The notes below the pieces were generated by a model. The model searched no databases. It saw only the letters and a program-made list of their open reading frames with translations, and was not told the DNA's origin. The position numbers and the translations under genes were made by a program. 54,318 nt of DNA, from NCBI RefSeq assembly GCF_001904745.1, contig NZ_MRCD01000063.1:1-54318 (forward strand), given 5' to 3'. The DNA is from Calothrix sp. HK-06. GTDB taxonomy: Bacteria > Cyanobacteriota > Cyanobacteriia > Cyanobacteriales > Nostocaceae. Each line of letters starts with the position of its first letter. The stretch's first letter is position 1. This document shows positions 1 through 54,318 of the stretch, piece by piece.

Positions 1-373
1 AGTCATAAATTTATATAACTTTATAATTATTATATTTTGACTCTATTATATTATTAAGAATTGTAGGATTATTTCAGTATAAATACTTGTCAATATAACT
101 ATAATAAAGTAATGATTATGAAGATAATTAATAATTATTGTTAAGAATATTTAAATAATTCTTTAAGAGTAATTAATTCAGATGAGTAGAAAAAGCTTCT
201 TCGCTTGCAGGTATTGGGTTTACAGATGATAAGAATAGAAAGTGGTCAAATTTTTTCATGAGAAAAATATGGACAGTTTGTTAACTGAACTAATGACCTG
301 AAAAGAAAAAGGTGCGATAATGAACCCGTGAGGAAAAAACGAAAGCATTATTGTTGATGCACGGGGGATTATT
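1..373. other. AT-rich intergenic/upstream region
   Basis: No open frame with recognisable coding character on either strand. Very AT-rich for the first 180 bases, then a more balanced leader in front of the gene at 374. The only structure I see is the inverted repeat at 325-365, listed separately. Confidence 0.5.
325..365 (+). promoter_or_regulatory. Possible leader hairpin before secreted pentapeptide gene
   Basis: CCCGTG at 325-330 is complementary to CACGGG at 360-365, with a small nested GCAT/ATGC pairing inside. The 3' arm runs straight into GGGGGA, the likely ribosome binding site for the ATG at 374. Pairing would therefore partly cover that site. No known riboswitch class recognised. 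Confidence 0.3.
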
Positions 374-829
374 ATGAAAATGAAATTATTTGCGGCTGTG
401 GTTCTAGCGACTCCCCTATTTTTAGCTGGTACAGTAAGCGCGCAGAGTTCAAACCAGTTACAACAGCTATTACAAACTGGTGAATGTATTAAATGTAATT
501 TAGTAGGGGTTGACTTAAAAGGTGCCCATCTAATCGGTGCCGACTTACGTGGTGCTAATTTAAAAGGAGCAGACTTAAGTAAAGCTAACTTAGAAGGCGC
601 CGATTTAACAGGGGCGAACCTAGAAGGTGCTAATCTAACTTCAGCTTTTGTTACAAACGTTAATTTTAAACAAGCTGACCTGGATAAAGTTAACTTTTCG
701 CAGGCAACAATTCACAATGCTAACGTATATCAGGCATCGATGAACGATATGAATATCAGTGATGCTGATATTTATGGTACTGGTATCGGTGTTGGTGGTG
801 AAGACGGATACGTTCCAGATTGGGATTAA
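374..829 (+). CDS. Secreted pentapeptide-repeat protein
   Basis: A 151-residue protein with a clear Sec signal peptide (residues about 1-23, cleavage near VSA-QS), so probably periplasmic. Residues about 41-135 are consecutive pentapeptide repeats of the A(D/N)LXX type, which fold as a right-handed quadrilateral beta-helix in known family members. The repeats become less regular towards the C-terminus, which ends in a short acidic tail. A C-x2-C pair (C38, C41) sits directly before the first coil and could form a disulfide. A GGGGGA motif lies 5-6 nt upstream of the ATG. Molecular function is unknown, as for most cyanobacterial pentapeptide proteins. It converges with another pentapeptide-repeat gene. 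Confidence 0.85.
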   Translation: MKMKLFAAVVLATPLFLAGTVSAQSSNQLQQLLQTGECIKCNLVGVDLKGAHLIGADLRGANLKGADLSKANLEGADLTGANLEGANLTSAFVTNVNFKQADLDKVNFSQATIHNANVYQASMNDMNISDADIYGTGIGVGGEDGYVPDWD

Positions 830-844
830 TTCTAATTTCTTGTA

Positions 845-866
845 GCACAGGCATCCCTGCCTGTGC
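845..866. terminator. Bidirectional hairpin between convergent genes
   Basis: A perfect 9-bp inverted repeat (GCACAGGCA/TGCCTGTGC, loop TCCC) sits between the stop codons of two convergent pentapeptide genes. There is no strong T tract, so it may be a palindromic repeat copy that also acts as transcription boundary. A related sequence (GGCCTGTGC) is near 37760. Confidence 0.5.
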
Positions 867-878
867 ATTGATTGTAAG

Positions 879-2240
879 CTAATTAAATGTACTTGATAAG
901 GGGCTGAAAATAAGAGCGAACTCTCCGGGTTTGAATGTGTTCTCCCAGTTGGCAGGTAAACGTCGAGGGTTAGGGTTTTCTTTAGTAGGTACACGCATAA
1001 ATATATATTCGCACTCGGCGCCTTCGAGTTGGGTTTGAGGTGTTATATCCCAGTTGTCTATATAGGCGCCTGTAAGAATTGCGGTGCGAAAGTCTGTATT
1101 ATCAACTTGGGAGCGCATTAAATTTGCTCTCATTAAGTTGGCGTTGCGTAAGTCACTGTTGTTTAGTTTGGCGCCAACTAAGCTGGTATCTATCAAGTTT
1201 GCTGCACGCAAGTTTAAACCTTGCAAGTCCCAACCATCAAAGTTTTGGTTGTGGAGGTCTTTGTGGACTACGATTTTTCTAATTGTTTGATTTGTGAGAT
1301 AACTTTTACCTACAACTGCTTGATTTAGGTTTTTAACTTCAAACCAACAGGTACGTGTTAAATTGGCTCTTAGAAAGTTGGCATTTTTGACTGAAGCGCG
1401 GGTAAAGTCAGCATCGGTAAGATTTGCGTCTTGAAAATTGGTACCGTAACGAGTAACTGTAGATAAAGCTAAATTACGAATTGCGCTTTGTTTTTCGTCT
1501 TCAAATAAGGCACGACAACCGACATAAGCTGATAGTAGAATTACAATTACGGCAATTGCTACAGCAACTCCTCCAGCAAGTGGGTTAACTCTTGCTGCCA
1601 TTACAGCCATGATTCCAGAAAGTGCTGCTGCAATAGAAATGGCGATAGTAACGGCAATCATTCCAGCGATGGTACCAGCAAGTGCTACGGTGCCTGCTAT
1701 TGTAACGGTACCAAGAATTGTTGCGACAACAGCTACGGCACCTGTGACAATAACAGCTACAACTTGTGCTAATTCCATTGCTTCAGCATGTGCAGTACCA
1801 CCTGCCCATGTAACAGCTACAATTCCAGCCCATCCAACTGCTGCAAGTCCAGCACACGTTACCGATAATGCCATAAATCCAAATGCAGCGCTAACTCCTC
1901 GAAACAGAGTGATGAGAAAGAATATTAGTAATACAGCTAAACTAATAATACCGACATAAAGGTTTTCACGATTGGTATCGAGTAGTAAAATTCCGACTAA
2001 TGAGCCACCTATTGCTGAAAGTAAACCAGATAAAGCCGAAAGTAGTAACGCAGTGAATATTAAGACAATGCAAGAGCGTTTTTGTAGTCCTGTTTTAGCG
2101 TGACTAAAGTTTGCACCTTCTAAATTAGCATTACTAAAGTCTACACCTCGGATGTTCGAGTAAGAAAAGTCGGCGCCACTAAGGTCTTTGCCTTTAAAGG
2201 ATTTACCTCTGAGCTTCGCACGGCGATAATCTTGAGCCAT
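879..2240 (-). CDS. Pentapeptide-repeat protein with hydrophobic membrane core
   Basis: A 453-residue protein with a sandwich layout. Residues about 8-50 are pentapeptide repeats (GADFS, GVDFS, GANFS style). Residues about 55-245 are strongly hydrophobic with several predicted membrane spans rich in Ala, Gly, Val and Ile. Residues about 265-400 return to pentapeptide repeats, interrupted near 305-335 by a less regular stretch, and about 50 non-repeat residues close the protein. No signal peptide is needed, as the core should insert itself in the membrane. Function unknown. The low-complexity hydrophobic part produces long spurious open frames on the opposite strand. Confidence 0.85.
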   Translation of the reverse strand: MAQDYRRAKLRGKSFKGKDLSGADFSYSNIRGVDFSNANLEGANFSHAKTGLQKRSCIVLIFTALLLSALSGLLSAIGGSLVGILLLDTNRENLYVGIISLAVLLIFFLITLFRGVSAAFGFMALSVTCAGLAAVGWAGIVAVTWAGGTAHAEAMELAQVVAVIVTGAVAVVATILGTVTIAGTVALAGTIAGMIAVTIAISIAAALSGIMAVMAARVNPLAGGVAVAIAVIVILLSAYVGCRALFEDEKQSAIRNLALSTVTRYGTNFQDANLTDADFTRASVKNANFLRANLTRTCWFEVKNLNQAVVGKSYLTNQTIRKIVVHKDLHNQNFDGWDLQGLNLRAANLIDTSLVGAKLNNSDLRNANLMRANLMRSQVDNTDFRTAILTGAYIDNWDITPQTQLEGAECEYIFMRVPTKENPNPRRLPANWENTFKPGEFALIFSPLSSTFN

Positions 2241-2373
2241 GTAAATTTACAACAGAGTTGGAACAATCAAAATACGTTTGTTGTAGGATAACACTTTCCC
2301 AACATGTTTTTGCCAGTGTAACCTTTTATAAAGATGTTCTTATTTATTATAATTTCTTAATAGTTATTAAGAC

Positions 2374-17923: not shown

Positions 17924-18241
17924 ATGGATTACTGTTTAGTAATGGTGACAACCAGTTCACAGCAAGAAGCAGAAACCATAGCTAAAACCCTTGTAGAATC
18001 AAAGCTTGCCGCCTGCGTCAACATTTTCCCTATTCAATCAATTTATACTTGGCAAGATAAAGTTCACAGCGAACCCGAATTTCAATTATTTATCAAAACC
18101 GACAGGCGCCTGTTTAACACCCTAGAAGCTAAAATTCGTGAATTACACTCCTACGAAGTACCCGAAATTATCGTCCTTCCCATTATCGCAGGTTCACAAC
18201 CCTATTTAAACTGGATTTCTGAAAACACCAAAAACCCGTAA
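17924..18241 (+). CDS. cutA: Divalent cation tolerance protein CutA
   Basis: A 105-residue CutA1 protein, a small very stable ferredoxin-fold trimer. It is known for copper binding and metal tolerance, though its true role remains unclear. Family signatures are all visible: T-T-S-x-x-x-E-A-x-x-I-A near the start, L-A-A-C-V-N-I at about 29-35, S-I-Y-T-W-Q-D-K near 39-46, E-F-Q-L-F-I-K-T, H-S-Y-E-V-P-E-I near 67-75 and Y-L-N-W-I at the end. Probably monocistronic, ended by the hairpin at 18247. Confidence 0.95.
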   Translation: MDYCLVMVTTSSQQEAETIAKTLVESKLAACVNIFPIQSIYTWQDKVHSEPEFQLFIKTDRRLFNTLEAKIRELHSYEVPEIIVLPIIAGSQPYLNWISENTKNP

Positions 18242-18246
18242 TACCC

Positions 18247-18270
18247 GCATGGGAATGTAAGTTCCCATGC
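18247..18270 (+). terminator. Hairpin after cutA
   Basis: A perfect 9-bp stem GCATGGGAA/TTCCCATGC with a 6-nt loop begins 5 nt after the cutA stop. It has no T tract (AAATAGCC follows), so its termination strength is uncertain. Confidence 0.5.
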
Positions 18271-18348
18271 AAATAGCCTAAGTCCTCTATAAAAGGACTA
18301 ACACTGAATGTTACTTTTAATACTTATTGTCAAATAATTATGTTAATT

Positions 18349-18387
18349 TTCCTAGAGGATATTTTTATGTAATTTATCCTCTAGGAA
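18349..18387. repeat. TTCCTAGAGGATA palindromic repeat, copy 1
   Basis: TTCCTAGAGGATA at 18349-18361 is inverted as TATCCTCTAGGAA at 18375-18387, a perfect 13-bp stem with a 13-nt loop. Two further copies with different loops are at 37071-37111 and 37136-37177. It lies between convergent cutA and the ADP-ribosylglycohydrolase gene. Confidence 0.85.
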
Positions 18388-18415
18388 TTTTGGCAGGAGT
18401 GCAAATAAATCTTAT

Positions 18416-19351
18416 TTATAATATACCTTTAGTAAATCGATTTGCTAAATCAATGATGTCATCTTTACGTGCAATTACTTCTATCCAGTCATTGGGTATA
18501 TTATCAAAACTATAATAAATACCTGCCAGTCCACCTGTAACAGCTGCCGTAGTATCTGTGTCAAATCCTAAATTCACAGCTTTTAGTACAGCTTCGGCAT
18601 AAGAAGAACTATTTAAAAGGCACCAAAGTGATGCTTCGAGTGTATCAATTACATATCCATCCGAACTAATTTCCTCTAATGGTAGTTTATTAATGGCGCC
18701 ATCAAAGACTCGTTCAAAATGCTGCATCTCCACATTATATTCAGATGTACTATAAATATCTTTAACGTCTTCTATGCCTTTTAGGTAAGCTGCGTGTTTG
18801 TCGGCGCCTTCTAGCAAAGCAACTGCAATACTAATATATATACCGCACGCGATTTGCGACCTGGGGTGAGCGTGAGTAATACATGAAACTTGATGTACTC
18901 GTTTAATTAGTTGAGAAAATTCTAATTCTCTATATAAATAAGCCATTGGTAAAATTCGCATGAGTGAACCATTACCATTACTGTTCTCAGTTTTACCACC
19001 TGCGTCTATAGGTGAGGCGCCTTGTTTCCAATTTATAATTGCCATAAACGTAGTGTTACCAATGTCAAAGACTTCACCTCTAGCAGTCCAGTAACTTTCG
19101 TGGTACCACTGCCAAAACGACTTAGCTATTGCATCGAGTGAAAACCCATTACATAAACTTTCTGCCAAACAAAAAGTCAGGGAACTATCATCAGACCAAG
19201 TGCCAGGTGGTTGATCCCATGTTCCGTAACCCTGCATTGAAGTTACTGGCAATGCTGTTCTTTCTAAGCGACTGGTAAATTCTACAGGCACTCCTAAAGC
19301 ATCACCGACACAAACACCCATTAAACCAGATAACACTTGATTGTTTGACAT
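18416..19351 (-). CDS. ADP-ribosylglycohydrolase family protein
   Basis: A 311-residue protein of the ADP-ribosylglycohydrolase (DraG/ARH) family, which removes ADP-ribose from proteins or related substrates using two Mg ions. Metal-binding motifs are present: G-D-A-L-G-V-P-V-E-F near residue 15, T-W-S-D-D-S-S-L-T near 50, G-N-G-S-L-M-R near 125, and D-T-D-T-T-A-A-V-T-G-G near 275. I use the ATG at 19351 because M-S-N-N-Q precedes the conserved L-x-G-L-x-G-V-C-V-G-D; the frame also opens at 19375. No nitrogenase or DraT gene is adjacent, so the substrate is unknown. Confidence 0.88.
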   Translation of the reverse strand: MSNNQVLSGLMGVCVGDALGVPVEFTSRLERTALPVTSMQGYGTWDQPPGTWSDDSSLTFCLAESLCNGFSLDAIAKSFWQWYHESYWTARGEVFDIGNTTFMAIINWKQGASPIDAGGKTENSNGNGSLMRILPMAYLYRELEFSQLIKRVHQVSCITHAHPRSQIACGIYISIAVALLEGADKHAAYLKGIEDVKDIYSTSEYNVEMQHFERVFDGAINKLPLEEISSDGYVIDTLEASLWCLLNSSSYAEAVLKAVNLGFDTDTTAAVTGGLAGIYYSFDNIPNDWIEVIARKDDIIDLANRFTKGIL

Positions 19352-19632
19352 AATAGTTCTTTGGATACTTACCATATAAATAATGGTCGTATCATTTATA
19401 ACTTATTTGTTCCAGAAAGTGTGACAGATTTAAAAGTGTCATCTAAAACATATAATTCTCCTGTTTTTTCGTTAAAGAGCTGTATAAATTATACTTTGGT
19501 AATTTTATGTACTTATAAATACAATTATGAAATAGCAACATTGGCTTAATAAAAGCCAAAAACTAACTGGAACCTTTTAGTATTTTTTTCGACCTTGAAT
19601 ATAAAGCGATACTTACAAATTAGGTTAAAAAT

Positions 19633-20169
19633 ATGAAAGGTGTGATGAAGTCTTTTGTGACGATTTCTGCATTGTCCGCTTTAGCAATTGCTCCAATTTT
19701 TATGTCTGCTGGTTCTGCTAGTGCGGCGCCTAAAAAAGGTACTGATGCAAGCTATGTTGGTGTAGGTGTAGCTGCTGGTGTTACCAACGGTGGTCAAAGT
19801 GGAGACGCTGCAACTTTTGGTGGTAATATTGTTGGTCGTGCTAAGTTGGGTAACTCACCATTATCTGCACGTGGTCAAATCAACTTCAGTGACCAAACAA
19901 GCGCAATTATCCCTCACTTAACTGTAGACGTACCTATCGCAAAGGGTACTAACGTTTACGTTGGTGGTGGTTATCAATTTGTTGAAAAAGACGGCAAACC
20001 AACTCCTAGTGGTAACAAAGATGGTGTTGCTGTTGTAGCTGGTGTTGAATCAGAAGTGGCTAGAAATTTCCTGATCTATAGCAACGCGACTGTCGGTATC
20101 AACGCTTATAAAAATAGCCCAGCTTCGGGTGTTAGCATCAACTCAGGTATTGGCTACCGCTTTAGATAG
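19633..20169 (+). CDS. Small exported beta-rich protein (outer-membrane-like)
   Basis: A 178-residue protein with a Sec signal peptide (cleavage near A-S-A-A, about residue 31). The mature part is rich in Gly, Val, Asn and Thr with alternating hydrophobic residues in short strands, and ends in G-I-G-Y-R-F-R. Strand-rich sequence with a C-terminal aromatic residue suggests a small outer-membrane beta-barrel, but I see no named family. A second ATG at 19645 is preceded by AAAGGTG and could be the real start; it still leaves a signal peptide. Monocistronic. Confidence 0.72.
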   Translation: MKGVMKSFVTISALSALAIAPIFMSAGSASAAPKKGTDASYVGVGVAAGVTNGGQSGDAATFGGNIVGRAKLGNSPLSARGQINFSDQTSAIIPHLTVDVPIAKGTNVYVGGGYQFVEKDGKPTPSGNKDGVAVVAGVESEVARNFLIYSNATVGINAYKNSPASGVSINSGIGYRFR

Positions 20170-20468
20170 AAATTGGCTCTTCTCCATTAGCTAATAGTTA
20201 ATACTTCATCAATATAGAATGGTATTTACTACCCCCATTAACTATTAGCAACCAGTTATTAACTATTTATAAACAACTAATAAGTATTATTGCCGGGTTT
20301 GTTTTAGTGTTACATCACTAGCGAAGTCGGCTTTTTAACGTGGTAGAATATAAATAATTCAACTTAATCCCGACCGGATTACCGTCCATCCGTAGCCGAA
20401 TGGGTGCTAAATCCTACCAAGTTTCGGCGTGTAGTGATGACTTAATAAGAACACTTTATTTTACAGAA

Positions 20469-22280
20469 ATGGTACAATCTGCTCCTCCTCCTGCCGTTGA
20501 AACCCGCAAACCTTCTAAAGTCGAAGGACTCAAAGAACGTAGTAATTTTTTACGTGAACCAGTTGCTACTGAGTTACTTCAAGACACGAATCACTTTAGC
20601 GAAGACGCTGTACAAATTTTGAAATTTCATGGTTCGTACCAGCAAGATAATCGTGATAACCGTGCCAAAGGGCAAGAGAAAGATTATCAAATGATGTTGC
20701 GTACACGTAACCCAGGTGGTTTTGTGCCGCCAGAGTTATATTTGACTTTAGATAAACTGGCTGACGAATACGGCAATCATACAATACGTGCTACCACTCG
20801 CCAAGGGTTTCAGTTACATGGGATTTTAAAGAAAAATCTTAAGCCCTCGATTGCTGCTATAATTCAAAGCATGGGTTCAACATTAGGCGCCTGTGGAGAC
20901 GTGAACCGTAACGTGATGGCGCCACCAGCTCCTTTCAAAAATAGACGCGATTATCAGTACGCTTGGGAATATGCCGAAAATATAGCCCAGCTACTAACAC
21001 CACAAACAGGAGCTTACTACGAAATTTGGTTGGATGGCGAAAAAGCTATTAGTGCTGAAGAAAATCCAGAAGTCGTAGCAGCACGTCAAAAGAATGGTAC
21101 GGGTACAATTGTTCATGACAACCCAGAACCTATCTATGGTACACACTACATGCCACGTAAGTTCAAAGTGAGCGTTACTGTACCAGGAGATAATTCAATT
21201 GATTTATATAGTCAAGATTTGACGTTGGTAGTCATTACCAATAAAAAAGGTGAACTCAAAGGGTTTAATGTATTTGCTGGTGGGGGTTTAGGAAGAACTC
21301 ATAATAAAGAAGAAACCTTCGCACGTACCGCAGACCCAATTGGTTACGTACAAAAAGAAGACGTTTACGACTTGGTAAAAGCAATTGTTGCCACACAGCG
21401 CGATTATGGTGATAGAACCGACAGACGCCATGCTCGATTAAAGTATTTAATAAATGATTGGGGAGTTGACAAGTTCCGCACGAAAGTCGAAGAATACTTT
21501 GGTAAACCCGTCGAACCATTTAAGAAACTCATCAAATTTAGATATCATGACTTTCTAGGTTGGCACGAACAAGGCGATGGTAAATTATTCTTGGGTGTTT
21601 CCATCGACAATGGACGTGTAAAAGACGAAGGTGACTTTAAGCTTAAAACAGCATTGCGCGAAATTGTCGAGAAGTATAACTTACCCATACATCTAACACC
21701 GCATCAAAACGCGCTGTTATGTAACATTGCACCAGAAAACAAAGAAGACATCGAAGCAATTCTTAATCGTAATGGTGTAGTCACAGACTTAGAAAAAATT
21801 GACTCGCTAGAAAGATTCTCTATGGCATGTCCTGCTTTGCCCACATGTGGTTTAGCAGTAACAGAGTCTGAGCGCGCAATACCATCCTTTTTACAACGGA
21901 TACGAGCATTACTCGATAAAGTCGGGTTGCCAAATGAACATTTTGTTACCAGAATGACAGGGTGTCCGAACGGATGCGCGCGTCCTTATATGGCAGAACT
22001 AGGATTTGTAGGTAGCGCTCCCCTGTCGTATCAAGTTTGGCTTGGTGGATGTCCCAATCAAACTCGAATGGCACAACCGTACACAGAAAAAATGCACGTG
22101 GACGACTTAGAGACTTTCCTCGAACCGATTTTTGTATTGTTCAAAAAGTCGCGTAAGAAAAAAGAAAGTTTTGGTGATTTTTGTGCGCGTGTTGGTTTTG
22201 ATGCGATTCGTTCCTTTAGCGAGACTTATCAACCTGGAGTTGAAGAAGTTAGCATGAAAGTCAAACATGGAAAAAAATAA
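20469..22280 (+). CDS. sir: Ferredoxin-dependent sulfite reductase
   Basis: Sir reduces sulfite to sulfide with six electrons from ferredoxin in assimilatory sulfur metabolism. The protein is about 603 residues from the ATG at 20469, whose M-V-Q-S-A start fits cyanobacterial homologues; the frame is open from 20400. The siroheme/[4Fe-4S] ligands are in [12 protein letters not shown] and [10 protein letters not shown]. Siroheme-binding arginines lie in T-T-R-Q-G-F-Q and N-V-M-A-P-P. The upstream gap of about 300 bp shows no recognisable CysR/NtcB site. It ends against the convergent hairpin at 22301. Confidence 0.96.
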
Positions 22281-22300
22281 TCTTGTGTAATGGTTTGTAT

Positions 22301-22317
22301 GGTGGGCAATGCCCACC
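22301..22317. terminator. Hairpin between convergent sir and GNAT genes
   Basis: GGTGGGC-AAT-GCCCACC, a 7-bp perfect stem followed by TTACTGATT. It shares GCCCACCTTACT with the hairpin at 11485, so it is a dispersed repeat used as a transcription boundary. Confidence 0.5.
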
Positions 22318-22359
22318 TTACTGATTACTCTGATTTGTTCGTAAAAAATAACTCATCCG

Positions 22360-22908: not shown

Positions 22909-23414
22909 AGAAAAATCAGAATATAAAAGGATTAATATAGTAATCCTAAATCATTTTTTAAAAATCATATGACCGAATTTTAATAAGCCGCGAATTTAGG
23001 TATAGTACTTTATTCTCCTTTACGTTTTTTTATAGTTTATTATTCAATAAAAAATATTAATATCTAAAAATAATATTCTATCTAAATTGTTATTAATTAA
23101 TTAAGCATTCAACCTATATAATAGTTATTGATATTAGTAAAAATCGTATTTATCTAACAAACCGCAATAGCCTAGGTTACAACCCTAGGAAAGCAAAGGA
23201 CATAAAGGAAAGAAAGCGGAATATTGGTTATAATCAAAGCTTGCATTAGATAAAATAGTATTTATTAATGTAATCATCTATAAATCATCTATATTTATAT
23301 TAAAGAACAAACAACAAGGGAGTTATTGCGATTGTTAGCACTAAAAAGATTTGTTAAACATCTATCATGCGACATATTTACCATATTCGAATTACAAAGA
23401 CAGTGGGGTAATTC
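22909..23414. other. Promoter and leader region of the aldehyde oxidoreductase operon
   Basis: About 500 bp between divergent genes. It is extremely AT-rich except for one structured, purine-rich block at 23155-23230, listed separately. No open frame. Confidence 0.45.
23155..23230 (+). promoter_or_regulatory. Candidate structured leader upstream of paoABC-like operon
   Basis: An isolated higher-complexity block in AT-rich DNA, 185 nt before the first gene. Nested pairings are visible: TAAC (23155-23158) with GTTA (23227-23230), CCGC (23162-23165) with GCGG (23216-23219), and inside them a 6-bp hairpin CCTAGG/CCTAGG (23171-23189). A conserved-looking unpaired purine stretch, AAAGCAAAGGACATAAAGG, follows. 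It does not match the Moco riboswitch or any class I can recall, so this is only a candidate. Confidence 0.3.
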
Positions 23415-27219: not shown

Positions 27220-27230
27220 AAATATGAATT

Positions 27231-27933: not shown

Positions 27934-27951
27934 ACGACCTTCAACACCAGA

Positions 27952-28758: not shown

Positions 28759-28763
28759 AAATC

Positions 28764-31652: not shown

Positions 31653-31667
31653 AAATTAGCGGGACAA

Positions 31668-32993
31668 TTAACTAAAAATTGCAAACTGTGCTTTGCCTTG
31701 CTGTTTGGCACGGTACATCGCAATATCCGCATCATTAAGCAAATTAAGAGGTTCTTCATGATTTTTTGAACTTAAGGCAATTCCAATACTAGCGGTAGCA
31801 ATAAGCTCGTGTCCTTTAAGGTGTAATGGTTTCTTAAGAGATTCTTGAATGCGTCTTGCTACACTTGTTGCCAAGTGTACGTTCTTGACATCTTCCAATA
31901 ACACAGCAAATTCATCACCTCCAAACCGAGCAACCGTGTCACCACTTCGTACACACGAGTTTAACCGAGAAGCGACATGAACTAGTAAATCATCCCCCAT
32001 CGAATGTCCGTAACGGTCATTAATTCCTTTAAAACCGTCTAAATCTAAAAACATGACGGCAAAATGATAATTATTCCTTCTTTTTGCACGCTCGAAAGCT
32101 TGCCTTAAGCGGTCTAAGAATAAAACTCGATTTGGTAATGATGTTAATGCATCGTAAAAAGCGTTGCGTACTAAATGTGCTTCCTTTTCTTTACGCTGCG
32201 ATATATCTTGAAATACTATAACGGCGCCTGTAATATTACCATCTCGGTCGCGAATTGGAGCAACATTGTCCCCAATGGGAATCAAATCGCCATTTTTATT
32301 GATTAACATGCAGTTTTCTGGCAAATTTAAAACTTGACCTTGTTTAATTGCTTGCCTTACCAAATAGTCGATTTCTTCTCCTGTGTCATTATCTACTAAG
32401 TTCAATACTTGTGTAATGTGCTTTCCAATAACTTCTTCTTCTTTCCAACCAGTTAGAGTTTCTGCAATTCGGTTCATTACTTGCACGTCTCCACTGATAC
32501 CAGTAATAACTACGGCGCTACCCATACTGTTAATAACTGACAGCATCTGCTGCTGTTCTACTTCAAATTTCGTTTCAATATGATGCTTATAAAGTGCCAT
32601 TTCTACAGCGTTATGTAAATCTTTTTCTGTAAACGGTTTAAATATATGACTAAACGGTTCGCTCCGGCGATGATATAAATTCGGTTGTACCGTATACTCC
32701 ATTAAATATAATACTGGTATGTGAAAGTTTTTCCGGATAATATTACCTGTTGCAATCGCATCAATATCACCAGCCAAGCAGATGTCCATTAATACTAAAT
32801 TAGGCTGCGTTTCTGCTACCTTTTGAATAGCTGCTTTCCCTGAATTAATTACATCTGAAACCGCATAGCCTAATTTCTGCAAACTATTCCTAATGTCTAT
32901 CGCGAGAACTATAGAGTCCTCTAAAACTAGGATTTTTGGGCAGTCCATGCTAAAGTTACCTGCTTCAATCGGTTCAGATACGATTAACGACAT
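31668..32993 (-). CDS. Receiver-PAS-GGDEF diguanylate cyclase
   Basis: A 441-residue signalling protein. Residues about 20-135 form a response-regulator receiver (L-E-D-S acidic pocket, phospho-acceptor Asp in L-M-D-I-C, Lys in F-K-P-F-T). Residues about 150-270 form a PAS domain ending in the typical V-F-Q-D-I-S-Q-R-K-E. Residues about 280-440 form a GGDEF domain with the intact active site G-G-D-E-F, so it can make cyclic di-GMP. There is no EAL domain, and no R-x-x-D inhibitory site directly before GGDEF. No kinase neighbour. A Met at residue 16 is an alternative start. Confidence 0.92.
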   Translation of the reverse strand: MSLIVSEPIEAGNFSMDCPKILVLEDSIVLAIDIRNSLQKLGYAVSDVINSGKAAIQKVAETQPNLVLMDICLAGDIDAIATGNIIRKNFHIPVLYLMEYTVQPNLYHRRSEPFSHIFKPFTEKDLHNAVEMALYKHHIETKFEVEQQQMLSVINSMGSAVVITGISGDVQVMNRIAETLTGWKEEEVIGKHITQVLNLVDNDTGEEIDYLVRQAIKQGQVLNLPENCMLINKNGDLIPIGDNVAPIRDRDGNITGAVIVFQDISQRKEKEAHLVRNAFYDALTSLPNRVLFLDRLRQAFERAKRRNNYHFAVMFLDLDGFKGINDRYGHSMGDDLLVHVASRLNSCVRSGDTVARFGGDEFAVLLEDVKNVHLATSVARRIQESLKKPLHLKGHELIATASIGIALSSKNHEEPLNLLNDADIAMYRAKQQGKAQFAIFS

Positions 32994-33467
32994 GAACCAT
33001 CACGGGCGAGAAAATTATTCTATCATAATCAATCTCCATACTGCTTGCATCTGCCGTTAGTACAAAGTTAAGCAGAATATTATATTAAGCAATCTGGGTT
33101 CAATTAACCGTTAATTTCGGCACTTACCTCTAATTTATCTGTGCAATCATTATCAAGTTTCCAAGCTATATTCAGCATATACTTGTATAAAAAATATCAT
33201 AGCTGCTTTATTATTTATTACCTCATAAATACAATAATACTCGGTTTTTACTTAGCTAAATAAAAATATTATATTAACATATAATTTAGTTATGTGTTGA
33301 TTTGATATACTGCTCCCGCTAAAAGAAAATCATTCATACACTAACAAAATATTAACCAAACACTTACAAGTAAAGTGGTATTGTAAATACAGTTTTGATG
33401 TATAAAAAAACCGGGTTTAATGTTAACCCGGTTTGCTGAACAACTTTTTTTGTTTGGTAATAAAACT
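32994..33467. other. AT-rich intergenic region
   Basis: About 475 bp between two leftward genes with no open frame. It holds the folB terminator (33408-33434) at its right end and otherwise the probable promoter of the GGDEF gene. Nothing else seen. Confidence 0.5.
33408..33434 (-). terminator. Rho-independent terminator of folB
   Basis: AAACCGGGTT/AACCCGGTTT, a perfect 10-bp stem with a 7-nt loop, followed on the minus strand by a run of seven T. It lies 34 bp after the folB stop. The CCGGG core is similar to the palindromes at 13093 and 46924. Confidence 0.75.
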
Positions 33468-33836
33468 TTAAACTCTAGTTCGAGTCACTTCGAGACTGAT
33501 TTTGCCTCCAAAATCAGGAATAGGCGCCGCTGGTTTACTGAGAATCACTTGTACTTGGGTGACATAATTACACTCGGCTAAAATCGACTCTGCAATTGTT
33601 ATTATTAGCTTTTCAATCAATGCGAACTTAGATGTTTGTATTAAATGCTTCACTATGCTGATTACGCTACGGTAATCTAAAGTATCTTCAATGGCATCAG
33701 TTTTTCCTGCTTTCGAGATATCTAGCCACAACTTAACATCTACTTCAAACCATTGTCCTAGCACTTGCTCTTCTGGTAGGTACCCAGTGTAACCATAAGC
33801 ACGAATACCTGTAACATGAATGTTGTCCATATTCAT
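33468..33836 (-). CDS. folB: Dihydroneopterin aldolase
   Basis: FolB converts 7,8-dihydroneopterin to 6-hydroxymethyl-dihydropterin in folate synthesis. The 122-residue protein has the family start D-x-I-x-V-T-G-I-R-A-Y-G-Y-T-G, with the catalytic region, the D-T-L-D-Y-R-S-V segment near 50, the substrate Glu in A-L-I-E-K-L near 72-77, and the late K-P-A-A-P-I motif with its catalytic-pocket Lys. The first ATG at 33836 and a second at 33830 are both possible. It is divergent from menD. Confidence 0.95.
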   Translation of the reverse strand: MNMDNIHVTGIRAYGYTGYLPEEQVLGQWFEVDVKLWLDISKAGKTDAIEDTLDYRSVISIVKHLIQTSKFALIEKLIITIAESILAECNYVTQVQVILSKPAAPIPDFGGKISLEVTRTRV

Positions 33837-33945
33837 ATATTATGTCAAAACGTTAAATTGCCTGGTTGGATTGTAATAGGTATTGGGTAATGGTAATCAA
33901 GTACTAGATACTAGATAGAGCAATATTAATTTCACCACTGTTATA

Positions 33946-35667
33946 ATGTCATTAATTCGTAATACAAATGAACTGTGGGCTTTTGTCCTTGTCGAAACTC
34001 TAGAAAGGTTAGGGTTGACTTATGCTGTAATTTGTCCAGGTTCTCGCTCGACTCCTTTAGCTGTTGCGTTTGCACAAAAGGTGCCTACAATAGAAGTGAT
34101 TCCTATTCTCGATGAACGTTCAGCAGGATTTTTTGCATTAGGAAAAGCAAGAGCGACAAAAAAACCTGTGGCAGTCGTTTGTACTTCTGGAACAGCGGGG
34201 GCAAATTTTTATCCTGCGGTGATTGAAGCGTTTGAAAGTTGTGTACCATTATTGTTACTAACTGCTGATAGACCGCAAGAATTACGCTTTTGTCACTCTG
34301 GACAAACTATTGACCAAGTAAAGTTATACGGTAATTATCCCAACTGGCAAGCCGAACTCGCAATTCCTGGCGCCACATTAAATTTACTAACATATTTAAG
34401 GCAAACAGTAATTCATGCATGGGAACGCTGTTTACTTCCTACTCCAGGCTTAGTACATTTAAATATACCGTTTCGCGACCCTCTAGCCCCAGTCAGAGAT
34501 GGTATTGATTTAACTAGCTTACAGTCAGAAATAAATAGCGAAGATTTTTGGCGCCATATTAAACCCGTTTCTTCCTTACCCACCCCTTCATCCTTACCCG
34601 TCCCCTCTTCTTCGCGTGGTATTATCATTGCTGGAATTGCTCAACCGCTTATAGATGAGCAATATTGTAATCAGGTAGCATTGCTTGCACACGCTTTAAA
34701 TTATCCTGTATTGGCAGAAGGACTTTCTCCCGTTCGTAACCATGCTCATTTAAATCCCTATATAATTTCCACTTACGACTCAATTCTTCGTAATGCTGAC
34801 TTTAGAGAAAAGCTTGCACCCGAATTTATCATCCTTATAGGTGAAATGCCAACTAGCAAGGAGCTACGAACTTGGTTACAGCAAACTCAACCGCAGTTAC
34901 TAATCATCGATAAAAGCTTTCGCAATCTTGATTCGCTGCACTTAAGAACTTCACACCTGCGAGTAGACATTTGTGAATTGAGCGAATTTCCGACGCTACC
35001 AACTACTACTTACCTTGAAGATTGGCGCCATATTGAAAATAAAACGCGAATAACACTCGATAAAACTTTTGAAAAAACCAACGAGATGCTTGAATGTAAA
35101 GCAGCTTGGTTACTTTCACAGATACTACCACCAAAAACACCTTTATTTATTGCCAACAGTATGCCTGTACGTGATATTGAGTTTTTCTGGAAACCCAATA
35201 ATCTTGGTATTAAAGTATTTGTTAACCGAGGCGCCAATGGTATTGATGGTACATTATCTACAGCTTTAGGAGTAGCTCACCGTAACCAAAGTAGTGTTAT
35301 GCTAACAGGTGATTTAGCTTTGCTGCATGATACAAACGGGTTTCTGATTATAAAAAAGTTTATAGGCCATTTAACAATTGTTCTAATTAATAACAACGGT
35401 GGTGGTATTTTTGAAATGTTACCAATTTCTCAATTTGAGCCACCATTTGAAGAATTATTCGCCACTCCCCAAGATATTGATTTTGGCAAACTCTCTGCTA
35501 CATATGATATTGAACATGAAATAATTACATCATGGGATTTATTAAAAGAAAAATTAAATCCATTACCCACATCAGGAATTCGCATTTTAGAAATACAAAC
35601 AAACCGTAAACATGATGCAAAATGGCGTAAAAATAATTTAGGAAAATTTGCTAATAATATCGATTAG
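33946..35667 (+). CDS. menD: SEPHCHC synthase (MenD)
   Basis: MenD is the thiamine-diphosphate enzyme joining 2-oxoglutarate to isochorismate in the phylloquinone/menaquinone pathway, which supplies the photosystem I electron carrier. The 573-residue protein starts with the conserved N-T-N-E-L-W-A and C-P-G-S-R-S-T-P-L-A, has the cofactor Glu in L-D-E-R-S-A-G-F-F-A-L-G, and the ThDP-binding G-D-L-A-L-L-H-D near 450 with L-I-N-N-N-G-G-G-I-F-E. It forms a tight pair with the LOG-family gene 20 bp downstream; menB lies 2.2 kb further. Confidence 0.97.
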   Translation: MSLIRNTNELWAFVLVETLERLGLTYAVICPGSRSTPLAVAFAQKVPTIEVIPILDERSAGFFALGKARATKKPVAVVCTSGTAGANFYPAVIEAFESCVPLLLLTADRPQELRFCHSGQTIDQVKLYGNYPNWQAELAIPGATLNLLTYLRQTVIHAWERCLLPTPGLVHLNIPFRDPLAPVRDGIDLTSLQSEINSEDFWRHIKPVSSLPTPSSLPVPSSSRGIIIAGIAQPLIDEQYCNQVALLAHALNYPVLAEGLSPVRNHAHLNPYIISTYDSILRNADFREKLAPEFIILIGEMPTSKELRTWLQQTQPQLLIIDKSFRNLDSLHLRTSHLRVDICELSEFPTLPTTTYLEDWRHIENKTRITLDKTFEKTNEMLECKAAWLLSQILPPKTPLFIANSMPVRDIEFFWKPNNLGIKVFVNRGANGIDGTLSTALGVAHRNQSSVMLTGDLALLHDTNGFLIIKKFIGHLTIVLINNNGGGIFEMLPISQFEPPFEELFATPQDIDFGKLSATYDIEHEIITSWDLLKEKLNPLPTSGIRILEIQTNRKHDAKWRKNNLGKFANNID

Positions 35668-35687
35668 AGAAGAGGGGAGATAAAACA

Positions 35688-36272
35688 ATGGAATCTATAT
35701 GTGTATTTTGCGGTTCGAGTATGGGAATTCGACCAAGTTACAAGCAGTCAGCGCAAAAACTAGGCGAAACTTTGGCTAATCTTGGATTAAAATTAGTGTA
35801 TGGAGGCGCCAGTGTTGGTTTAATGGGTATTGTTGCTGATGCCGTTTTAAGTAACGGTGGTCAGGTAATTGGTGTTATACCAGAGTTTTTAGCAAACAAA
35901 GAAATTGCTCATATTGGACTCAGTGAACTTTATGTTGTAAATTCAATGCACGAACGTAAAACTAAGATGGCAGAATTAGCAGATGGATTTATTGCCTTAC
36001 CTGGAGGATATGGAACATTTGAAGAATTCTGTGAAATATTAACTTGGGCACAGTTACGACTTCATGATAAACCTTGCGGGTTATTAAACATTGATGGATA
36101 TTATGACCCCTTGTTGAAATTATTTGACCAAGCGGTTACAGAACAGTTTTTGAAACCAGAATTACGTGCGTTGGTTCTTCAAGCATCAGAACCTGAAGAA
36201 TTATTAACTTTATTTGCAAATTATAAACCTAATATAGTTGACAAATGGATTGGTCGAGAAGTTAAACCATAA
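35688..36272 (+). CDS. LOG family protein (putative nucleoside-monophosphate phosphoribohydrolase)
   Basis: A 194-residue Rossmann-like protein of the LOG (LONELY GUY) family. Members cleave the ribose phosphate from cytokinin nucleotides or AMP. The phosphate-binding motif P-G-G-Y-G-T-F-E-E near residues 104-112 is intact, with V-Y-G-G-A-S-V-G-L-M-G near 38-48 and the conserved M-H-E-R-K-x-x-M. It follows menD by 20 bp with an AGAGGGGAG stretch as ribosome binding site, so it is probably co-transcribed. The true substrate in cyanobacteria is unclear. Confidence 0.92.
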   Translation: MESICVFCGSSMGIRPSYKQSAQKLGETLANLGLKLVYGGASVGLMGIVADAVLSNGGQVIGVIPEFLANKEIAHIGLSELYVVNSMHERKTKMAELADGFIALPGGYGTFEEFCEILTWAQLRLHDKPCGLLNIDGYYDPLLKLFDQAVTEQFLKPELRALVLQASEPEELLTLFANYKPNIVDKWIGREVKP

Positions 36273-36281
36273 TATCCACTA

Positions 36282-36998
36282 TTATTTGATGCCACCAAAG
36301 ACAGCTAAACCGTAGTACTTCCAGGGAACAGCTACAGTTGAAAATCCAGCTTGCATAAGCATTTGTAAGTGTGCGTTCAAAGTTGCTAATTGGTCTTGAT
36401 TTGAATATCCATAACTGCTACTGTTTCCTATTCTTGCACGGACATCAGCTAGTGTAGTGCCTTGTTGAGTTGCCCATTCTTCTCGCGCTAATTTATACAC
36501 TTCTGCTAAAGTTGGCGCCTCTGGTAAAGTTGGGTCTGCATTCCAAAAACAGGCGGATGGAATAAGACTTTCATAAATACGTGTAAATAAATTTTGCTTC
36601 ATTTCATCCGTAAGATGATGAATCGCAAGTGACGATATACACGCATCAAAATCGGTGCTGATATTAAATTTATCAGGATAACTTGCCCACTCGCCAAAAT
36701 CAGCTTCTTGTCCCGACCATCTTTCTTCACATCCAAAAGAACTAACCTTCGAGCACGCGAAGTTAATCATGCGTGGTGAATAATCAAGTGCTATAACTTC
36801 CGCATCTGGACAACGCTTGAGTATTTTGAGCGTCAACTCCCCTGTTCCACAACCAAGTTCTAGAATTTTTTTACTTGTAGATGGTACACAGCGAGTAATC
36901 ACTTCGAGCATTTCATCATAACGCGGCAAAAGTTGACGAATACCAGCATCAAAATCAGAAGTGTTAGCGAACACTTCGCCAGGATATATTTGTGTCAT
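36282..36998 (-). CDS. Class I SAM-dependent methyltransferase
   Basis: A 238-residue methyltransferase with the SAM-binding motif I L-E-L-G-C-G-T-G-E-L near residues 45-54, an acidic motif II (V-I-A-L-D-Y-S) near 69-75, and the post-I S-S-L-A-I-H-H-L. The C-terminal third is variable, as in the methyltransferase 12/25 clans, and the substrate cannot be told. It is convergent with the LOG gene (9-bp gap) and upstream is the long repeat-rich gap. The menD-menB neighbourhood might suggest MenG, but the sequence does not look like MenG/UbiE. Confidence 0.85.
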   Translation of the reverse strand: MTQIYPGEVFANTSDFDAGIRQLLPRYDEMLEVITRCVPSTSKKILELGCGTGELTLKILKRCPDAEVIALDYSPRMINFACSKVSSFGCEERWSGQEADFGEWASYPDKFNISTDFDACISSLAIHHLTDEMKQNLFTRIYESLIPSACFWNADPTLPEAPTLAEVYKLAREEWATQQGTTLADVRARIGNSSSYGYSNQDQLATLNAHLQMLMQAGFSTVAVPWKYYGLAVFGGIK

Positions 36999-37059
36999 AG
37001 ATTTTAAGTAAATGCATCTAATTTAATTATCATACGAAAAAATGAACCTCCCCACCCCA

Positions 37060-37200
37060 AAGGCGCCAAATTCCTAGAGGATAAATCATATCCAAATATA
37101 TCCTCTAGGAATATTGACATAACGAAGGCGCCAAATTCCTAGAGGATAAAATTACATCTAAATATATCCTCTAGGAAAATTTGCATAACGAAGGCGCCAA
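37060..37200. repeat. 65-66 bp direct repeats carrying TTCCTAGAGGATA palindromes
   Basis: Unit 1 (37060-37124) and unit 2 (37125-37190) each start AAGGCGCCAAATTCCTAGAGG and end with a CATAACG; a third unit begins at 37191 but breaks off after AAGGCGCCAAATTT. Each full unit contains a 13-bp inverted repeat (37071-37083 with 37099-37111; 37136-37148 with 37165-37177) with a differing loop. The same palindrome occurs at 18349-18387. Confidence 0.85.
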
Positions 37201-37308
37201 ATTTTTAGTAGTCCACGTTATTAATGCTACCAAGTGAAAAATAATCAACAGCAATATTTGAGTCAAAATTATATTAAATAATGTTGGAAGTTGACCACCT
37301 AAAAACCA

Positions 37309-37516
37309 TTGGTACAGCTTCATACTTATAATGGTATGGGAAAAAGAGTTCGTACCATTTCTTCTACAAATTTGTACCAACTTTTAAGGTACGAGGCAGA
37401 AAAATTGTACCAATGTTTTTTGCTACTGTACCACGGTACGAAGTTTAAGTAACTGGGCTACGTAAAATTGTAAAGACTGTGCTGACAGTACCATTTGTGA
37501 TAGTGTTTTTGGTACG
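37309..37516. promoter_or_regulatory. Cluster of nine GGTAC/GTACC sites
   Basis: Exact GGTAC at 37311, 37389, 37435 and 37511; exact GTACC at 37352, 37374, 37407, 37428 and 37488. Flanks agree loosely with T(T/G)GGTAC(A/G)A. The pair at 37428-37439 forms an inverted repeat with 2-nt spacer, and GGTACGAAGTT occurs twice (37435 and 37511). Base composition predicts well under one such site in 205 bp. This looks like an array of protein binding sites or a decayed iterated repeat, 350 bp before menB. Confidence 0.5.
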
Positions 37517-37867
37517 AAGTTAGCCTTTTTTTTGGTATAAAATTCTTATTTTTATGGCACAGCAATGAGTTTAAGTTAGTTCAATATTGAATTAGAGTGA
37601 TATTATTAAACTATTAATAATAAGTGAAATAACCTCTATATTAATAAATTTGATTTTGTGTACTATATTGAATAGTTAGTAGTTTATTCTCTTAATGCCC
37701 TCTTTCTGTGTACTCTGTGTCTCTGTGGTAAAAATAATTACTTACTGCATAGGCTTTCCGGCCTGTGCTATAAGACTCACAAATTAATGATGTGATTTTG
37801 GTGCATTTGATGCTCTCGTTGCCCTATGCGATAAAATTTTCTGGTTCGGCAATAATAAACGCCTGTA

Positions 37868-38701
37868 ATGGAAACCAATTGGCAAACTGTTAAATCTTAC
37901 GAAGATATTCTTTATCATAAATCTGATGGCATTGCGAAAATTACCATCAACCGTCCCCATAAGCGCAATGCTTTTCGTCCCAAAACGGTATTTGAGCTTT
38001 ACGAGGCTTTTTGTGATGCTCGCGAAGATACTACTATTGGAGTTGTTTTATTTACTGGATATGGCCCACATACTGATGGTAAGTATGCTTTTTGTTCGGG
38101 TGGGGACCAAAGTGTAAGGGGACAAGCTGGTTATATTGATGATGAAGGGACTCCACGATTAAATGTATTAGATTTACAACGCTTAATTCGTTCGATGCCT
38201 AAAGTTGTTATCGCTTTAGTTGCTGGCTATGCTATTGGTGGTGGACATGTTCTACATTTAATTTGTGACTTGACAATTGCTGCCGATAATGCGGTGTTTG
38301 GTCAAACTGGCCCCAAAGTTGGTAGCTTTGATGGTGGTTTCGGCGCCAGTTATCTTGCGCGTGTCGTTGGACAAAAAAAAGCTCGCGAAATTTGGTTCCT
38401 TTGCCGTCAGTATAATGCTCAACAAGCTCTAGAAATGGGATTAATTAATACAATTGTTCCTGTTGAACAGCTTGAAGCAGAGGGTATTCAATGGGCAAAA
38501 GAGATTTTAGAAAAAAGTCCCATTGCTATTCGCTGTCTCAAAGCTGCTTTTAATGCTGACTGTGATGGGCAAGCTGGCTTACAAGAACTTGCTGGTAACG
38601 CCACTTTACTTTATTACATGACTCTTGAAGGCGCCGAAGGTAAACAAGCTTTTTTAGAAAAACGTCCGCCAAATTTCCGCTCTTTTCCTTGGCTACCTTA
38701 A
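37868..38701 (+). CDS. menB: 1,4-dihydroxy-2-naphthoyl-CoA synthase
   Basis: MenB closes the second ring in phylloquinone/menaquinone synthesis, converting O-succinylbenzoyl-CoA. The 277-residue crotonase-fold protein has [10 protein letters not shown] near 31-40, the F-C-S-G-G-D-Q segment with the oxyanion-hole Gly near 76-82, G-Y-A-I-G-G-G-H near 122-129, and the C-terminal [10 protein letters not shown]. It follows a long repeat-rich gap and has its own terminator at 38729, so it is probably transcribed separately from menD. Confidence 0.97.
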
Positions 38702-53442: not shown

Positions 53443-53448
53443 ACACAC

Positions 53449-53754
53449 CTCAATTTTTTAAACTAGCTTTTACGGTGCCAATATTCTTCAAAATCCTTAT
53501 AAAACATGGATTTCACAGTAAAATTGTTATTACATGTCTTCTATACTGATATCTATTGCTGCAAAATAGCCACAGTATGGTTACTTAATTTAAATTTGAA
53601 GAGAGAATAAATTACAAGCTAATCTTTGTAAAGAAATTATTTTTACGTAAAAACAATACAATTTGTATTTATTTATATAAAAAGAATATATGTAGAGACG
53701 CGATGTTCCTCGCGTCTCTACGTTGAAATGTTTCTGCTTTACGTTGTTTCGATA
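53449..53754. other. Intergenic region with GTAGAGACG hairpin
   Basis: About 306 bp between two leftward genes. AT-rich leader of the M10 gene on the left, then the palindromic repeat at 53692-53721. No open frame. Confidence 0.45.
53692..53721. repeat. GTAGAGACG palindromic repeat
   Basis: GTAGAGACGCGA (53692-53703) pairs with TCGCGTCTCTAC (53710-53721), a perfect 12-bp stem with loop TGTTCC. It lies 33 bp after the subtilase fragment stop and may act as its terminator. Confidence 0.85.
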
Positions 53755-54270
53755 TTAAGAAAATCTTGAACTCCCGAATAAAGTATGGCTAGTTGAGAGT
53801 TTTGTGATAATGGCATACGCGCGACGTACAGCAGCGTCAGCGTTAACTAACCCGTTACCAAAATCACTATCTTTTCCTGGAGTGAGTAAGTCAGTAGCGG
53901 TGTCGATAAATATTTGACGTATTTGCGCTGCGGTTAAGTTGGGGTTGATGCTCCATATGAGTAAAACTATTCCAGCTACATTTGGGTTTGCACCAGATGT
54001 ACCGCCAAAAATTTGCATTTCACCATAACTATTTATTGCTGGTGCATCGGTAGGCACCATTAATATTACATTTTTACCATAGTTGGAATACCAAGCACGT
54101 TTTATAGATGTGGCATTTGTTAAACCATTGACTATTGTTGTACCTGTCGGAACTAATGCGCCAACGGCAATAACGTTATTGAGAGTGGTCTGTAATCGTG
54201 CGACACCACCACTGTATGTTGCAATTGTTGTACCTGAATAGTAATCTAAGTCTTGTTTATGTACTGGACT
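53755..54270 (-). pseudogene. C-terminal fragment of an S8 (subtilisin-like) protease
   Basis: The frame encodes the end of a subtilase catalytic domain. It has N-N-V-I-A-V-G-A-L (near 54170), the K-R-A-W-Y-S-N-Y-G-K-N-V block, and the catalytic-Ser segment G-G-T-S-G-A-N-P-N-V-A-G. Coding similarity continues about 70 codons upstream of the first ATG (54060), but the frame is closed by TAA at 54271-54273. No start codon precedes the homologous part. The Asp and His parts of the triad are missing. Ten bases beyond the stop is a GC-rich palindrome. Either a repeat insertion broke the gene or the upstream part lies past the window with a frame break here. Confidence 0.7.
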
Positions 54271-54283
54271 TTAGACTAAAGCA

Positions 54284-54304
54284 CGCGACCGCTTCGCGGT
54301 CGCG
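54284..54304. repeat. GC-rich palindrome CGCGACCGC/GCGGTCGCG
   Basis: A perfect 9-bp stem with a TTC loop, much richer in GC than its surroundings, directly followed by a GGCGCC site and then the window end. Sequences of this form are a dispersed repeat in several filamentous cyanobacteria. It sits at the break point of the subtilase fragment. Confidence 0.7.
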
Positions 54305-54318
54305 GCGCCAAAAAAGCT

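Follow-up and report, generated by a model that had tools for sequence, protein, structure and literature searches.

GGCGCC in place of HIP1 throughout the genus of Calothrix sp. HK-06, with a possible origin in methylation-linked mismatch correction

Introduction

The stretch of DNA analysed here, which we call the window, is the whole 54,318-nucleotide contig NZ_MRCD01000063.1 of Calothrix sp. HK-06 (assembly GCF_001904745.1; family Nostocaceae), read on its forward strand. It carries 42 open reading frames (ORFs) of at least 150 amino acids (aa), and copies of the hexamer GGCGCC are scattered both through these ORFs and outside them. The highly iterated palindrome 1 (HIP1, GCGATCGC) has 0 copies in the window by exact count. 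The reason why HIP1 is dense in most cyanobacteria has been open since the 1990s, and a main dispute is whether its sites serve a function or arise as a by-product of repair directed by methylation. A genus in which the palindrome has been exchanged, in which one methyltransferase stands without an endonuclease and another is missing, provides replicated natural evidence on this question.

The palindrome exchange itself is not new, as it was published for Calothrix PCC 7103 (Elhai 2015, PMC4390886). There, GGCGCC in this strain is by a wide margin the top over-represented 6-mer in a set of 97 genomes and is named an alternate HIP, and the dataset for it consists of one genome and 19 kb of another strain. 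Elhai also reports that PCC 7103 has two methyltransferases of the GRCGYC type and a possible endonuclease for GATC, and that the standard 5-methylcytosine (m5C) enzyme for CGATCG has been lost and replaced. The paper considers that the second methyltransferase copy is possibly critical, notes that the base which such enzymes methylate was unknown at that time, describes alternate HIPs as sporadic and not in clades, and proposes a mismatch-repair ratchet directed by G-meC. No later treatment of GGCGCC in cyanobacteria, or of the HIP1 palindrome in Calothrix from 2015 on, was found in the full-text literature, a body of text that leaves subscription papers mostly uncovered. What we add is the genus-wide reach of the exchange, an orphan-type methyltransferase locus, a missing m5C methyltransferase and a set of substitution asymmetries.

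GGCGCC in the window and the genome

Base composition predicts 2.96 copies of GGCGCC in the window, which holds 89 (Poisson p ~3e-96). A preliminary description of the same DNA had counted about 85-90 by eye against about 3 at random, and the places it named (596, 1017, 3831, 20918, 26139, 37062 and 51065) are all real. The expectation from a maximal-order Markov model is 44 (p ~2e-9), which is too high because the pentamers within GGCGCC are inflated along with the motif. As the motif is a palindrome, each site reads on both strands. The 42 ORFs contain 74 of the sites, distributed over the frames as 49, 8 and 17, and 15 more lie outside these ORFs. When the ORFs are shuffled among synonymous codons (n=300), they yield 5.0 +/- 2.0 sites with a maximum of 11. 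Given an excess in all three frames together with this shuffling result, codon or dipeptide bias is ruled out, as the earlier reading of several frames had supposed.

Across the whole HK-06 genome (9,990,453 bases in 243 contigs) there are 15,449 copies, or 1,546 per megabase (Mb), whereas the reversed control CCGCGG occurs six times. A count near expectation, or an excess seen in the window only, had been set beforehand as the outcome that would overturn the preliminary description, and the genome shows neither. The average interval in the genus is ~600 bases. The sites had also been described as spread evenly, and this part did not hold: their spacing is close to random, with a coefficient of variation of 0.90 over 154 kb of HK-06 and 1.02 over 212 kb of the congener PCC 7102, and neither even spacing nor saturation is seen. 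HIP1, which had been reported as unseen, is rare genome-wide rather than wholly absent, with 88 copies, or 8.8 per Mb, beside 66 of the reversed control.

In the same 154 kb of HK-06, GGCGCC reaches 255 copies against 8.0 expected, and the preference for particular bases flanking the six is slight. Other forms of GRCGYC are scarce there (GACGTC, 1 against 20.3 expected; GGCGTC, 3 against 12.8), and GATC is nearly purged (47 against 542 expected).

Table 1. Positions of GGCGCC in the window, given as first bases or as ranges
Feature	Position	Strand	Basis
GGCGCC sites 1-15 of 89	596, 1017, 1065, 1170, 2172, 2587, 3487, 3831, 4160, 4702, 6391, 7272, 7473, 8946, 9300		exact count
GGCGCC sites 16-30 of 89	9823, 10359, 11603, 11952, 13433, 13511, 14259, 15405, 17163, 17427, 17849, 18105, 18695, 18803, 19016		exact count
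GGCGCC sites 31-45 of 89	19725, 20886, 20918, 22415, 22706, 23490, 23694, 24332, 24675, 25530, 25901, 25960, 26139, 26725, 26797		exact count
GGCGCC sites 46-60 of 89	27773, 28468, 28920, 29562, 29813, 31185, 31335, 31501, 32223, 33523, 34369, 34550, 35024, 35230, 35805		exact count
GGCGCC sites 61-75 of 89	36514, 37062, 37127, 37193, 38342, 38630, 39075, 39909, 40889, 40992, 41267, 41427, 43081, 44201, 44318		exact count
GGCGCC sites 76-89 of 89	46155, 46227, 46407, 46787, 47477, 48656, 49569, 49799, 49891, 50332, 50868, 51065, 51379, 54304		exact count
Example named in the preliminary description	596..601		exact count
Example named in the preliminary description	1017..1022		exact count
Example in a cluster of three (37062, 37127, 37193) within 140 bases	37062..37067		exact count

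Distribution across genus, family and class

Our family survey covered 217 genomes, of which seven belong to the genus of the window and 210 to 55 other genera. The seven are HK-06 (G000), Dulcicalothrix desertica PCC 7102 (G060), Calothrix PCC 7103 (G061), NIES-4105 (G062), C42_A2020_038 (G063), FI2-JRJ7 (G064) and PCC 7716 (G065). They carry 7,475-20,380 copies of GGCGCC each (1,150-1,711 per Mb) and 31-163 copies of HIP1 (3.6-22.6 per Mb). Plasmids share the density of GGCGCC, with 73 copies in 40 kb of plasmid sequence from NIES-4105 and 29 copies in 20 kb of one plasmid from PCC 7716. Among the other 210 genomes the maximum is 1,053 copies, or 111 per Mb, in G084, where the reversed control numbers 1,270; and samples of 40-80 kb from each of four family genomes of similar GC content (G194, G184, G199 and G012) contain no GGCGCC. 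HIP1 falls below 200 per Mb in four of the 210 (9 in G182, 50 in G194, 82 in G191 and 104 in G184). HIP1 has been exchanged for GGCGCC across whole genomes and in every member of the genus, as the suggestion of a lineage-specific exchange had anticipated.

In a sample of 388 genomes from the class, some picocyanobacteria (family f17) exceed 1,000 GGCGCC per Mb; we read these counts as a reflection of high GC content, as their reversed controls likewise run into the thousands. Within the genus, whose genomes span 6.5-12.4 Mb, the reversed word CCGCGG is almost missing, at 1-8 copies in each, and it is scarce in many relatives too.

Methyltransferases present and missing

Members of the C-5 cytosine methylase family PF00145 fetched from the seven genomes, which do not include every weak match, form 14 clusters, and two of these are found in all seven. 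One, of 370 aa, is no marker of the genus because close relatives (68-73% identical) occur in HIP1-bearing genomes. The other has ~313 aa and shares 55% identity with an Escherichia coli plasmid gene annotated hindVM (HindV methylase), and the PF00145 domain is recognised in the PCC 7102 protein with E 7.9e-66. HindV recognises GRCGYC. At E <= 1e-40, all seven congeners have a HindV-type methyltransferase, as do 56 of the 210 other genomes, fragments included (Fisher p 1.4e-4). In all seven the gene lies at the same locus, between a gene for a RuBisCO-like protein and an SLH/GHL10 gene, and in the stretches read beside it no match to the HindVP endonuclease appears in any of the seven. Among the 13 best relatives from outside the genus, a HindVP endonuclease gene or its remnant (PF09519) adjoins nine, with none at the other four. 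From the homology and from the endonuclease adjoining these relatives, we infer that the specificity of the enzyme is GRCGYC. The predicted tie to a methyltransferase is borne out insofar as such a gene stands without an adjoining HindVP endonuclease throughout the genus, although its type is GRCGYC and not strictly specific to GGCGCC. Members of PF01555, a candidate class for a strictly GGCGCC-specific enzyme producing N4-methylcytosine or N6-methyladenine, were listed for the seven genomes as well.

The arrangement resembles HindV restriction-modification in the kinship of the methyltransferase and in the RE_HindVP genes alongside its outside relatives; it differs in that no adjoining endonuclease was found in the genus, where one target form is abundant rather than avoided. 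More distant HindV-type copies (~60% identical) lie elsewhere in the genus, including on plasmids C2 and C3 of NIES-4105 and on contig C60 of HK-06. Contig C60 also bears a second HindV-type copy of HK-06, with 83% identity and an open frame of 328 aa; near a copy on this contig lies a gene judged from its sequence to be DnaB-like.

A second m5C methyltransferase, represented by the protein L105, occurs in 203 of the 210 genomes outside the genus at E <= 1e-70, in some of them with internal stops. At that threshold, which a truncated relic would escape, it is found in 0 of 7 congeners (p 8e-10). This enzyme is likely DmtC, acting on CGATCG, because it is nearly universal in the HIP1-bearing family and because Elhai reported the loss of such an enzyme from PCC 7103. 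An attempt to name its specificity through annotated plasmids failed, as the best matches listed were unnamed or, in two records, HaeIII. In Synechocystis 6803, the first C of CGATCG is m5C (PMC6604393). GGCGCC would resemble HIP1 with its enzymes DmtA and DmtC in being dense within and between genes and in being a GC-rich palindrome that contains G-m5C-G, the modification being putative for GGCGCC. The two differ in sequence, and the putative CGATCG m5C methyltransferase is not found in the seven genomes.

Three properties of an alternate HIP are present: a GC-rich palindrome at ~1,000-2,000 per Mb (1,546 in HK-06), HIP1 nearly absent, and in 7 of 7 genomes a methyltransferase that homology and the neighbourhood of its relatives mark as the putative modifier of the palindrome. 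The case shares with that described by Elhai, whose strain PCC 7103 is one of our seven, the same palindrome, density class, loss of HIP1, depletion of GATC and GRCGYC-type methyltransferase. It differs in embracing a whole genus, and in that substitution patterns suggest the inner C as the modified base. Elhai's remark that alternate HIPs are sporadic and not clade-wide, an observation rather than a defining property, does not describe this genus, where all seven members carry GGCGCC, and clade-wide persistence takes away one of Elhai's two arguments for HIP1 being selected. Nor is it supported that two copies of the GRCGYC methyltransferase are needed, since PCC 7102 and C42_A2020_038 show one copy each at E <= 1e-40 and yet hold 1,701 and 1,150 GGCGCC per Mb.

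Conservation and substitution of sites

The window was aligned to its six congeners at 81-94% identity, with positions 18000..37999 of the forward strand serving to locate the syntenic regions (matched pieces 72-97% identical). All rate data come from one such region, with 118,360 hexamer positions. Conservation between close relatives had been proposed as a check, and in 6 of 6 pairs GGCGCC is kept above other hexamers made of G and C only. The proportions are 76/85 against 155/209 for PCC 7102, 70/79 against 146/197 for FI2-JRJ7, 47/55 against 76/130 for PCC 7716, 47/67 against 67/156 for NIES-4105 and 12/19 against 11/44 for C42_A2020_038, and the smallest contrast is that with PCC 7103 (42/59 against 86/136).

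The sites that are lost change in a particular way. At sites found in just one genome of a pair, the partner reads GGTGCC or GGCACC in 67 of 109 cases for the four close pairs taken together, and in at least 9 of 41 (NIES-4105) and 3 of 10 (C42_A2020_038) cases in the distant pairs. By parsimony, GGCGCC became GGTGCC or GGCACC in 22 of 259 opportunities, and all eight remaining types of change add up to 8. Glycine-alanine pairs encoded as GGC-GCC, in which positions 3 and 6 are silent, show among 171 opportunities 17 changes of C3 to T, one of C3 to A and one change at C6. Other fourfold-degenerate C positions changed in 9.4% of cases, so that change at C6 is ~16-fold rarer (p 5e-6), and C3 and C6 differ from each other (p 1e-5). 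The G-meC repair model requires that the methylated base be a C standing after G, and the predominance of C3 to T (67/109 in pairs; 17/19 among silent changes) is consistent with a putative GG-m5C-GCC. Substitution patterns thereby suggest C3 as the sole leaking position of the site, via C to T, as would be expected for 5-methylcytosine. These two words differ in number between strains, GGTGCC and GGCACC being over twice as many in PCC 7103 (93 in 213 kb) as in PCC 7102 (39 in 212 kb), which hints at a lineage-specific balance between C and T.

Rates were estimated by likelihood on the seven-genome tree with a 4-state model, in substitution units. The change GGCGCC to GGTGCC proceeds at 1.68 per strand against 0.79-1.25 in three control sets. 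The return, GGTGCC to GGCGCC, is estimated at 16.9 against 0.33-0.47 in the control sets and 0.50-0.85 for ordinary T to C, which makes it 20-36 times the ordinary rate. Fixing it at 0.5 costs 37.6 log units; with gamma-distributed rate variation the fast return is still needed (40 log units lost with the rate fixed at 0.46), and leaving out one genome at a time gives estimates of 9.6-18.6 at a cost of 15.5-40 log units. One 3-state run converged on an inferior optimum with a return rate of 24.2, a value that we leave aside. For fifteen other nnCGnn palindromes, the 3-state model gives a two-strand C-to-T loss of 2.69 against 3.2-3.5 for GGCGCC, and a return of 0.0. What distinguishes GGCGCC is therefore the protection of its other positions and the quick way back rather than the mutability of C3. 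Gains from A to G appear raised at position 1 (6.3 against an ordinary 0.51, with a log-likelihood loss of 4.5 at 0.5) and at position 2 (3.3 against the same 0.51), in each case with few sites. For transversions the pooled gain rate is 0.0, and a value of 2.0 is disfavoured by 5.7 log units. Any HIP-bearing clade can be examined for these asymmetries, which amount to a quantitative prediction.

Explanations of the exchange

We propose that the class of explanation put forward by Elhai in 2015, a repair ratchet, applies here. The GRCGYC methyltransferase would methylate the inner cytosine, giving GG-m5C-GCC, and in the absence of its endonuclease would no longer select against its own sites. 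Mismatch correction linked to methylation would then settle mismatches arising at a site in favour of GGCGCC, as the rates suggest. Site-creating transitions would be fixed faster than elsewhere, and most site-destroying changes would be undone. Deamination of m5C at the inner C would leak into a pool of GGTGCC and GGCACC that is soon turned back. A correction of G:T-type mismatches that favours the methylated site would thereby produce the whole substitution pattern. The density of GGCGCC would be the equilibrium of this ratchet, and no function of the sites would be required. We judge that a ratchet by methylation-linked mismatch correction fits the rates better than selection alone, and give it a probability of roughly 0.5, rather than 0.55, because the parsimony counts and the C-to-T behaviour of the control palindromes were weighed in.

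Several observations weigh against this proposal. Parsimony finds few gains (GGTGCC or GGCACC to GGCGCC in 2 of 10 cases; 0 of 50 from other one-off words, among them 0 of 9 from AGCGCC), and the high gain rate therefore rests on the likelihood model. Likewise, none of 111 other glycine-alanine codon pairs gained a GGCGCC, just 3 of these being GGT-GCC. The hypermutability of C3 is not unique, as loss from C to T is almost as quick in the other nnCGnn palindromes, and at silent positions C3 to T is only 1.6 times as frequent as at other fourfold C (p 0.07). The likelihood profile of position 2 is irregular, the estimates for positions 1 and 2 draw on few sites, and the rate data are confined to the one syntenic region. 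Spacing is near random, whereas a ratchet that saturates at ~1 site per 1,000 bases might cover the genome evenly. In HK-06, a contig break (C29 and C207) cuts the shared methyltransferase gene at its locus, where it may not be intact. Seven genomes outside the genus have no putative DmtC and still hold 2,878-6,883 copies of HIP1, so that loss of DmtC alone does not remove HIP1. Finally, the repair protein Vsr (PF03852) has no match in the seven congeners and one in the 217 family genomes, by a search that was positive in 5 of 14 control genomes.

A bolder version of the ratchet, to which we give rather less than even credence, would treat HIPs as a molecular drive: a methyltransferase without an endonuclease would have made its own site an attractor of mismatch correction, with no selection for the sites. 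If so, transitions that create GGCGCC would be fixed ~5 to 35 times faster than normal, filling genomes with ~7,500-20,000 copies that last through the radiation of a genus, and another methyltransferase coupled to the same machinery would yield HIP1.

The alternative nearest in kind to the ratchet is a repair specific to T:G mismatches, in which an enzyme other than Vsr, resembling very short patch (VSP) repair or a thymine glycosylase, would restore C at GGTGCC and GGCACC after deamination of m5C. Such an enzyme would also catch ordinary misincorporation of G opposite T and so pump up GGCGCC. VSP repair may likewise pump up Dcm sites in E. coli, where its action was reportedly described by Bhagwat and McClelland in 1992. 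The likeness lies in a repair bias that shifts oligonucleotide abundance at methylated (here putatively methylated) sites, and the strongest and best-determined excess in our data is indeed T to C at position 3. The differences are that the genus has no Vsr gene, which rules out VSP repair driven by Vsr as such (other glycosylases were not searched for), and that gains at position 1 also seem raised, although not by parsimony. Because repair at position 3 alone also leaves the suppressed changes elsewhere, including silent C6, unexplained, we regard this alternative as unlikely, though it deserves to be kept in view.

Selection for GGCGCC itself, with changes away from it removed because of some function in recombination, nucleoid organisation or repair signalling, would agree with the superior retention in all six pairs, with the rarity of silent losses at C6 and with the lasting of the trait across the whole genus. 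By our own arithmetic, in which standard fixation formulas convert rates to scaled strengths and the gain rate is model-based, the suppressed losses call for a strength of ~4. Such a strength would fit the transversions as well as the gains at positions 1 and 2, but it would lift gains only ~4-fold, not 20-36-fold as at position 3. Moreover, strong selection should also suppress C3 to T, yet this is the commonest change, and it should lift transversion gains proportionally, whereas none is raised. As the main cause we consider selection improbable, with a chance on the order of one in a handful.

A DNA uptake signal, like the DNA uptake sequence (DUS) of Neisseria or the uptake signal sequence (USS) of Haemophilus, restored by preferential uptake and recombination, would agree with the similar dispersion of GGCGCC and with its equal density on resident plasmids. 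Recombination should restore transversion variants too, however, and this is unseen; to our knowledge a 6-mer palindrome set by the target of a methyltransferase is not the usual form of uptake signals, and we hold this explanation to be very improbable. A compositional or codon-usage artefact can be set aside with near certainty, given the shuffled codons, the six CCGCGG in the genome and the empty samples of similar GC content.

Other iterated words and genomes

A second, weaker motif of the genus is CGCGCG, joined in part by GCGCGC, both above expectation (samples L157-L161 of HK-06, L181-L184 and L205-L211 of PCC 7103, L188-L191 of NIES-4105 and L195-L196 of C42_A2020_038). They number 57 and 44 against 8.0 in HK-06, and CGCGCG numbers 62 against 4.2 expected in NIES-4105; its enrichment persists when GGCGCC is masked. 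Both words are outside the top ten of PCC 7102.

The family genomes G194 (L162-L165) and G184 (L166-L169) are large, have little HIP1 and are poor in GATC (9 against 280 and 31 against 269 expected). No replacing palindrome is found among the top palindromes in 80 kb of each, and the two are possible intermediates.

In the class sample, a milder excess of GGCGCC occurs in G545, G557, G445, G506 and G500, all of which bear HIP1 in the 10-40 kb sampled from each and have a GC content of 0.46-0.56 across readable contigs (the G545 sample contains one contig reading as N). A larger one is seen in G432, of the same order but of family f5 and genus g60, with 9,489 copies in 3.8 Mb against 2,450 of the reversed control, an excess that carries a binning caveat, as the contigs examined are short (10-43 kb). 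In 75 kb of this genome (L243-L247) there are 160 GGCGCC against 28.6 expected, and 78 of them lie in CGGCGCCG (2.1 expected). Three sampled congeners of G432 have only 304-343 copies, and its excess is apparently a second, independent case. In G281 (L248), of the same genus g60, HIP1 is not found in 20 kb, and GGCC numbers 301 against 100 expected; its top palindromes include TGGCCA and AGGCCT, possibly representing yet another iterated motif.

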